From an uncultured Fodinibius sp. (GTDB lineage: Bacteria; Bacteroidota; Rhodothermia; Balneolales; Balneolaceae): a stretch of 64,000 nt of DNA. Numbering within the stretch: position 1 is the first letter of the stretch; the number at the start of each line of letters is the position of its first letter. The notes below the pieces were generated by a model, which had not been told where the DNA came from, ran no database searches, and saw nothing but the letters and a program-made list of their open reading frames with translations. This document shows positions 18,790 through 50,459 of this stretch, piece by piece. The stretch lies in assembly GCA_913056235.1 (NCBI GenBank), contig CAJXMW010000001.1, positions 992,001-1,056,000 of the forward strand, written 5' to 3'. The translations under genes and the position numbers were made by a program.

Positions 18790-19332
18790 ATGAAGCGAAA
18801 AATATTTTTCTGGCTGGAACGCCTTAAAATTACCCCAACAGAACGAAAAACAATATCGGGATTGATGGTATTGCTCGTTGTGCTGGGCAGTATAAATCTG
18901 GGGCTTTCACCATCAGTGCCTTTTGAGAATAACGACTATCTCGAACTTGAGAAACAGTTCAAAAACCGAACGGCTAAGCTCGAGGCAAAAGAGCAGGAGC
19001 TGATGAAGCAATATTTCCCGACCCCGAAACCGAACCAGCAGGTTAATACAAGCCAGGATATGTTGGCAGATACTACCGATTCCACCACTTCTGAAATGAG
19101 CGTTCAACCTACTCAAGATGCTCAGAAGGAACGAATAAATATCAATAAAGCTGATCTTGCAACATTGAAAAGCCTGCCCGGTATTGGTCCTACTTATGCC
19201 CGACGTATCGTGGAATACCGAAATACCAATAGTGGATTTGGGAGCTTGGATGAGCTCAAAAAAATAAAGGGAATAGCTGAAAAACGACTGGAAAAATTGA
19301 AGCCTTTTATCAAACTTAAGGATTCAAAATAA
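18790..19332 (+). CDS. ComEA-like helix-hairpin-helix membrane protein
   Basis: Protein of 180 residues with an N-terminal membrane anchor (residues about 24-42, ISGLMVLLVVLGSINLGL), a coiled-coil stretch (DYLELEKQFKNRTAKLEAKEQEL), a Ser/Thr/Gln-rich linker and a C-terminal tandem HhH DNA-binding domain (INKADLATLKSLPGIGPTYARRIVEYR ... IKGIAEKRLEKLKPF, described here in pieces of residues 117-175). This is the ComEA layout, so it probably binds DNA in the periplasm, as in natural transformation. Only 18 bases separate it from porX, suggesting a shared transcript, though the two functions are not obviously linked. Confidence 0.8.
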   Translation: MKRKIFFWLERLKITPTERKTISGLMVLLVVLGSINLGLSPSVPFENNDYLELEKQFKNRTAKLEAKEQELMKQYFPTPKPNQQVNTSQDMLADTTDSTTSEMSVQPTQDAQKERININKADLATLKSLPGIGPTYARRIVEYRNTNSGFGSLDELKKIKGIAEKRLEKLKPFIKLKDSK

Positions 19333-48500: not shown

Positions 48501-50459
48501 ATGAAAAACAACCTAATGCATTTCAGGCGTTGGCTGGTCACGTTGGCTTTTTGTTTGATACCTCTTTTCGTGCATTCCATGCAGCCCCATCCAGATAGCA
48601 GTTCCGTTGAGTGGATTAAACCCTATTTTAATATGCCGGCCGATTATTCGGTGGCGCTATCAGGTAATATGAGCAAAAGCAGTGCAGATCTGATCGGGTC
48701 GCTGGAACAACTTATTGAGCAGGCTACCCATAGCATTGATTTGGCTATTTATGATCTTGAACATCCACGGATTGCCCAGTCGTTGGCTGAAGCGAAAAAG
48801 CGAGGCGTGTCGGTGCGTATTGTTACTGATAATTACCATCGTACTGATGCCGAAGAAATTGATTCTACCATCTGGGCAACACTCCGCCAGGCCCGAATTA
48901 CTTCCATTGACGATGACGGGGATATCTATCGGGCTGAAGGCGGTATTGTTGATCATTCACTAACCAACTCAGGCGCCGATATGCATCACAAGTTTGCGAT
49001 AATTGATGCCGAGAATGCTAGGCCTGACGACGATTATCTCTGGACTGGATCCACGAATCTCACCCTGACCGGTGCGTACAACACGAATAATACAATTGTG
49101 ATTAAAGACAGTGGCATTGCCGATGCTTATTTGGCGGAGTTTGAGCAGATGTGGGGCAGTCCCGGTGACAACCCCAATGCTCGGCGCGCGCGTTTTCATA
49201 AAGATAAAAAGGAGGTCAGTGCTCATACTTATTTCGTGGATGATACGCGCGTGGAGGTCTATTTTTCACCAATCAATCGTGATGATACCAAACCTAGTAT
49301 TATGAACCGGCTGGTGGAGGTGATCCGCAGTGAGGCCCAACACGATATTGCATTCCAAGCCTTTGCTATCACACCAAGTATTCCCCTGAGCCGTACCATC
49401 TGGGATATGTCAGCTACTGGAGAGGTAGCGTTATACGGTCTCATTGATCCGCTGTTTTATTACCGTTATAAAAACAATGGAGATATCTGGGCATCACCAG
49501 CATCAAAGGTGAAAAATCGCACCATATTGCCAGCTAATGAGATGCGCAAACTCCACCACAAGGTGATGTTGTTGGATGGCAACCATCCCGATTCTTCAGA
49601 TCAGGGTGTAACCATTGCAGGGTCATATAACTTTTCAAAAAATGCCGAAGTAAATAACGATGAGAATCTGCTGATTATTTATTCGGATCGAATCACGAAC
49701 CAGTATTACCAGGATTTTAAGGGTGCAATCCGTCGAGCCAAACGGCAGGCAAAAGTGCCGGCGCCGCCCATCAAAAGTGAGCAGTGGTACACCGTCAAAG
49801 AAGTAAGGGATGGTAGCCGGTTTACCATCGAGGTGTTGCCGGGTTTTGAATACGACGTAGAATTTCTGGGGGTGGATATGCCGCGTGTGTATGCCGGTAA
49901 CGACTCGTCGGAGTACTATTCGGCAGAGGCGTCCGAGTATCTGCGCAATCTTATTTCCGGAGCTGAAGTTCGGCTGCAAGGCCCATCCGGAGAGGAGCCT
50001 GAGGCGCGCTATGGGGCGTTCCAATCATATGTAACGCTTCAAAAGGAGGGCAGAAAGATCCCGCTAAACAGACAGTTGTTGCAAAGAGGTTTTGGGCAAT
50101 ACGATAAATATTATGCTCAGCATCCTGATTCGGTGAGCGCGTACCGACAGTACGAGCAGCAGGCCCGATCAGGAGGAGTGGGTTTCTGGAAGCATCCCGA
50201 AAAAATTGGCCAGCGATTTTCCAGGGCAGAGATTATCGACAAGCAGTCGGAGCCTTCGGATGCTTTTCCAATCAATATCAACACGGCGGATGAAGCCCTG
50301 CTTGACTTGTTGCCGGGCATCGGGCCGGCTTATGCGGGACGTATTATTGCCTACCGCAAGCAACACGGCAACTTCACGGATGTGGATCAGCTCCGGAATA
50401 TCAGGGGTATTGGTCCCAAGACAATGCAGAAATTACGTCCCAATGTAGTAGTAGAGTAG
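48501..50459 (+). CDS. Exported phospholipase D-like protein fused to SNase-like and HhH domains
   Basis: Protein of 652 residues with a signal peptide at 1-26. Two PLD catalytic motifs are intact: HHKFAIID at 162-169 with WTGSTNLT, and HHKVMLLD at 352-359 with AGSYNFS, so it can form a PLD active site, most likely nuclease or phosphodiesterase. A staphylococcal-nuclease-like domain follows (about 428-563), but its catalytic positions look lost: DGS where DGD is expected, Glu454 and Arg462 where Arg and Glu are expected, and YGA for YGR. A tandem helix-hairpin-helix ComEA-like domain (about 590-648) ends it. Probably a periplasmic or external DNA-acting enzyme; the domain trio is unusual. Confidence 0.85.
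   Translation: MKNNLMHFRRWLVTLAFCLIPLFVHSMQPHPDSSSVEWIKPYFNMPADYSVALSGNMSKSSADLIGSLEQLIEQATHSIDLAIYDLEHPRIAQSLAEAKKRGVSVRIVTDNYHRTDAEEIDSTIWATLRQARITSIDDDGDIYRAEGGIVDHSLTNSGADMHHKFAIIDAENARPDDDYLWTGSTNLTLTGAYNTNNTIVIKDSGIADAYLAEFEQMWGSPGDNPNARRARFHKDKKEVSAHTYFVDDTRVEVYFSPINRDDTKPSIMNRLVEVIRSEAQHDIAFQAFAITPSIPLSRTIWDMSATGEVALYGLIDPLFYYRYKNNGDIWASPASKVKNRTILPANEMRKLHHKVMLLDGNHPDSSDQGVTIAGSYNFSKNAEVNNDENLLIIYSDRITNQYYQDFKGAIRRAKRQAKVPAPPIKSEQWYTVKEVRDGSRFTIEVLPGFEYDVEFLGVDMPRVYAGNDSSEYYSAEASEYLRNLISGAEVRLQGPSGEEPEARYGAFQSYVTLQKEGRKIPLNRQLLQRGFGQYDKYYAQHPDSVSAYRQYEQQARSGGVGFWKHPEKIGQRFSRAEIIDKQSEPSDAFPININTADEALLDLLPGIGPAYAGRIIAYRKQHGNFTDVDQLRNIRGIGPKTMQKLRPNVVVE

Follow-up and report, generated by a model that had tools for sequence, protein, structure and literature searches.

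What purpose is served by a staphylococcal nuclease (SNase) domain that has lost its catalytic residues, when it sits in an apparently exported protein between an intact PLD region and a putative DNA-binding tail? The question is raised by an open reading frame at 48501-50459 (+ strand) of the window, meaning the whole 64,000-nucleotide stretch of an uncultured Fodinibius sp. genome analysed here. Its 652-aa product has a signal-peptide-like start followed by PLD, SNase-fold and HhH domains. Against Pfam it gives two PLDc_2 matches (4e-35), one to SNase at residues 453-564 (5e-11; 43.5 bits against a cut-off of 21) and one to HHH_3 at residues 590-649 (1e-20). These matches and the conservation of the motifs bear out the initial annotation, which had read a signal peptide, two intact HKD motifs, an SNase-like domain and a tandem HhH domain in one protein. 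The PLD-SNase-HhH layout is not due to chance, since there are 55 orthologues across Balneolales. A full-length AF2 model built from three sequences was poor (pLDDT 41), and for that reason no inter-domain geometry is claimed.

The predicted signal peptide, MKNNLMHFRRWLVTLAFCLIPLFVHS (48501-48578, +), was read from the sequence and its cleavage site is approximate. A hydrophobic leader can be read in 41/41 distinct orthologues, which supports the exported-type leader proposed at the outset, and one of these, L015, has the lipobox LASC. The mature part of the 652-aa protein contains zero cysteines, as is consistent with an exported protein. We infer that the fusion protein is exported and is either periplasmic or secreted.

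The tandem PLD region (residues 60-415; 48678-49745, +) carries the superfamily signature, HxKx4D with a downstream GSxN, in the two copies that an active site uses. The first HKD motif, H162-x-K164-x4-D169 (48984-49007, +), is followed by GSTN at 49047-49058 (G183-S184-x-N186), and the second, H352-x-K354-x4-D359 (49554-49577, +), by GSYN at 49620-49631 (G374-S375-Y-N377). The H, K, D and GS columns are unchanged in 41/41 orthologues, and both motifs with their complete GSxN, including N186, are invariant in an alignment of 16. A profile of the region matches Nuc (1byr, 5.6e-15), MitoPLD (mitochondrial cardiolipin hydrolase/Zucchini) and NucT in the PDB; all eight PDB sequences at E<=0.01 belong to this group, not to the lipid PLDs. 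By this comparison the PLD part is closest to the nuclease PLDs. The architecture differs, however: Nuc, NucT and MitoPLD have one HKD motif per chain, and PLDs of this single-HKD type dimerise, whereas the fusion has both motifs in one chain and adds SNase and HhH. NucT itself is a membrane-associated periplasmic endonuclease that is cation-independent, prefers single strands and is implicated in purine salvage and transformation in H. pylori (PMC5714352).

The C-terminal HhH pair (residues 590-650; 50268-50450, +) is of the ComEA type. Both GIG hairpins are kept in the alignment, and the pair matches ComEA structures in the PDB (8dss, 1.9e-14). The likeness is confined to this part: against the whole-protein ComEA model (TIGR01259, cut-off 152 bits) the fusion reaches 67.2 bits, over profile positions 48-120 only, and, unlike ComEA, it lacks the N-terminal part and has its HhH joined to PLD-SNase. 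The window also encodes, at 18790-19332, a ComEA-like protein of 180 aa that has a hydrophobic segment at its N-terminal end as well as a tandem HhH (HHH_3). The echo of this protein that had been noticed in the fusion's HhH holds up, with 45% identity over 66 aa.

The central domain (residues 428-566; 49782-50198, +) resembles staphylococcal nuclease (PF00565) in fold and in strand and helix order. Searched against the PDB, a profile of the region built on 26 sequences of the family hits staphylococcal nuclease at 1.5e-9. When a domain-only AF2 model (pLDDT 58) was used in a fold search, staphylococcal nuclease was the match in all 50 entries listed, the best among these being 4yij (Z 9.8, 2.8 Å over 97 residues), with 1stn at Z 9.5. 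An SNase OB-type fold is thus confirmed.

What the domain does not have is the catalytic set. In the staphylococcal nuclease frame, D437 corresponds to Asp19, S439 to Asp21, E454 to Arg35, D459 to Asp40, R462 to Glu43 and A506 to Arg87, so that the assignment of Ser, Glu, Arg and Ala to the positions of Asp21, Arg35, Glu43 and Arg87 was correct (Ser439, 49815-49817; Glu454, 49860-49862; Arg462, 49884-49886; Ala506, 50016-50018; all +), and Asp40 is kept, as D459. Among 41 distinct full-length orthologues, Asp21, which binds Ca2+, and Glu43, which serves as general base, are replaced in every one, the Glu43 position being S in 21, R in 17, T in two and W in one. The other residues survive in part: Arg35 in 24/41, Asp40 in 20/41 and Arg87 in 12/41. 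The same losses, looked for across homologues, are therefore general for the two acids but not for the two arginines. In contrast, Asp21, Arg35, Glu43 and Arg87 are all kept in 11/11 closely related single-domain SNases; the phylum sample supplied ten of these and Balneolales one (G034). As these relatives can be aligned across the region and retain all four residues, the acids and arginines of the catalytic set have not merely shifted to other positions in the fusion. Most simply read, the mosaic seen on a midpoint-rooted tree with one long row suggests that Asp21 and Glu43 were lost in an ancestor and the rest piecemeal afterwards. Every member seen of this bacterial family has lost the canonical SNase active site, and intact close controls stand beside them. 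No second SNase was found in a search of the Fodinibius sp. genome. Genome G034, which is without the fusion, carries a stand-alone SNase (L100, C77:8413-8739) whose catalytic residues are intact and whose C-terminal extension contains Cys.

Loss of the catalytic set has not been followed by decay, which is ruled out by a dN/dS of 0.04-0.16 for the SNase domain in close pairs (dS 0.26-0.83), similar to that of the PLD region. Judged by these ratios, the catalytically dead domain is under purifying selection. The pattern of conservation within it is the reverse of that in active SNases. In the latter, mean entropy is low in the strands that bear the catalytic residues (0.93 and 1.11 bits), which form the conserved part, and highest in the loop that follows Glu43 (2.30 bits). 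Among eleven diverse fusion proteins, the value for strands 4-5 rises to 1.73 bits, while loop 463-473 drops to 1.25 bits and loop 537-545 to 1.37 bits, against 1.84 in active SNases. Thus conservation has visibly relocated, on the alignments, from the catalytic strands to two rim loops.

Each of these loops holds a family-specific motif: AGxDS at residues 465-469 (49893-49907, +), with D468 in 40/41 orthologues and S469 in 41/41, and QxxDS at residues 540-544 (50118-50132, +), with Q540, D543 and S544 each in 40/41. By profile alignment they correspond to residues 46-50 and 117-121 of staphylococcal nuclease, which flank the nucleotide cleft. At the positions of the two aspartates, Lys or Arg predominates in active SNases (mostly K/R at 468 and mostly R/S/K at 543). 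Acidic residues at the rim of the old cleft disfavour ordinary DNA binding there and favour docking or a metal. Many members of the group come from salty places and their proteins tend to be acidic, which weakens the argument from charge; a general acidity, however, does not account for single positions that stay invariant. The initial proposal that the SNase fold has become a binder or scaffold is therefore upheld in that the domain looks repurposed and conserved, but the old cleft is probably not where DNA would be bound, and a site for docking or for a metal is more likely. More tentatively, and with the odds somewhat against it, the old cleft may have been rebuilt as a conserved acidic site, made up of AGxDS, QxxDS and D437, that docks a PLD lobe, a partner or a metal and gates the PLD nuclease. 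If so, this would be a bacterial pseudonuclease serving as an allosteric or docking module.

The distribution of the gene gives some indication of how it has been maintained. Orthologues occur in 55 of 128 Balneolales genomes, one gene each; the count excludes G126, where matches lie in the PLD part only, and two matches are cut by contig ends. Of 394 genomes sampled from the phylum, none outside Balneolales had a full-length match, and a plasmid search returned no record with 80% coverage. A close-relative scan of 84,980 species genomes gave two loci, one in a named Balneolaceae and the other with a protein identical to that of the Balneolales genome G023. In the phylum sample and this one scan, then, the PLD-SNase-HhH fusion was found only in Balneolales. 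The domain order is thus common within one bacterial order, and a literature search for the fusion returned no relevant paper that describes it.

Thirteen genomes in which the gene is intact were examined; in these its neighbour is divIC, oriented divergently, and beyond that comes an LptD-like gene. Among nine examined genomes that lack the fusion and have yraN near divIC, eight show an empty slot of ~60-280 bases between the two; in G021 there is instead ~1.8 kb of sequence (L114, 4801-6593) at this place. A relic in G009 (L088, 5115-5628, between divIC and a symporter gene) has suffered a large internal deletion; what survives is the final 60 residues and, interrupted by stops, ~120 residues of the N-terminal part. 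A further locus, G065:C162:2625-4550, has an in-frame TAG within an otherwise full-length match and is either a pseudogene or an assembly error. A single syntenic slot, empty sites and one deletion relic indicate that the gene is accessory and vertically kept. As judged from these arrangements, it is old in Balneolales, dispensable and outside any mobile or defence island. A phage or defence origin is rejected in view of the fixed synteny and of PHROGs and PADLOC matches that are weak only. Identity with the defence PLDs is likewise rejected, the NCBIfam scores being 39.6 bits against a cut-off of 133 for DISARM DrmC and 13.7 against 100 for DpdK.

How might these parts work together? The protein is probably an exported Balneolales nuclease in which the PLD part cuts, the HhH pair holds DNA and the pseudo-SNase docks. 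The tandem HKD motifs would form one two-lobed, metal-independent active site cutting nucleic acid, and the ComEA-type pair at the C terminus would hold double-stranded DNA without sequence preference. The pseudo-SNase, deprived of its Ca2+ ligand and general base, keeps its fold and its new conserved rim; it most likely serves as a docking scaffold that contacts the PLD part or a partner, or acts through a bound cation, and that helps to bring DNA into place for cleavage by the PLD part. Such an enzyme would probably digest extracellular or periplasmic DNA for scavenging, a role that is a guess prompted by the NucT precedent and by export. The fusion would extend the few described Gram-negative ways of handling external DNA. 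Moreover, the role of a dead nuclease domain inside a predicted live nuclease is directly testable with one small protein.

Nutrient DNA and uptake had both been suggested initially, and the second deserves consideration. A NucT-like competence factor would nick or trim incoming periplasmic DNA for natural transformation, its HhH passing the DNA to ComEA/ComEC. The ComEA-type HhH, the ComEA-like gene in the same window, the presence of ComEC in the genome and the implication of NucT, a periplasmic PLD nuclease, in transformation as well as purine salvage (PMC5714352) would all suit such a role. However, ComEC is present in 81/83 good genomes and the fusion gene in about 43/83 (a figure that leaves out the PLD-only G126), so that the two are not tied and the fusion is no obligate part of competence. 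ComEC co-occurrence says nothing about a facultative role, because ComEC is nearly universal. The gene also lies by divIC and yraN, away from competence genes. A competence role is thus possible but not indicated, and we consider it rather unlikely; scavenging fits better than an obligate role of this kind, and the uptake half of the initial suggestion fared poorly.

Two further alternatives concern the chemistry of the fusion protein. The best-known degenerate SNase-fold domains are those of the eukaryotic Tudor-SN. The main caution on a dead SNase comes from Tudor-SN, whose SN domains can still cut with one Ca2+ ligand although most of their catalytic residues have degenerated (PMC5900569); D459 is present here. 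Like SN1 and SN3 of Tudor-SN, the fusion's domain might act as a weak Ca2+-dependent nuclease through its remaining acids, D437, which is invariant in 41/41 orthologues, and D459. However, the Asp40 position that D459 occupies is N, E, K or R in 21/41, Glu43 is absent throughout, both arginines are also gone in the 652-aa protein, and, compared with active SNases, conservation is lower in the catalytic strands and higher in the rim loops, all of which makes residual cleavage decidedly improbable. The resemblance to Tudor-SN/SND1 in degenerate SNase-fold domains (PMC5900569) goes no further, since that protein is eukaryotic, with several SN repeats plus Tudor and no PLD or HhH, whereas the fusion is bacterial and apparently exported. 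The other alternative starts from the PLD part. Phospholipids, too, are substrates within the PLD superfamily, and the fusion's PLD region is acidic; both facts count against an exported nuclease. An enzyme acting on phospholipid or another cell-envelope phosphodiester, with the other domains as adaptors, would agree with the exported-type leader and with a position adjoining divIC and an LptD-like gene on the opposite strand. Yet the nearest PLDs by profile are nucleases, the HhH is a DNA-binding module, and the neighbours are divergent and stay when the gene is lost, which leaves an envelope function very little chance.

Balneolales also possess large tandem-HKD PLD proteins (L019-L024, in genomes G024, G035, G027, G036, G029 and G033) that are 32-36% identical to the fusion in the tandem HKD region. 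They are likely to be an extracellular sister family without SNase or HhH, a location that counts in favour of export of the fusion protein as well. In L019, the one scanned, Ig/ASH, DUF5689 and Por_Secre_tail domains replace SNase and HhH, the last being a sorting tail for type IX secretion (T9SS).
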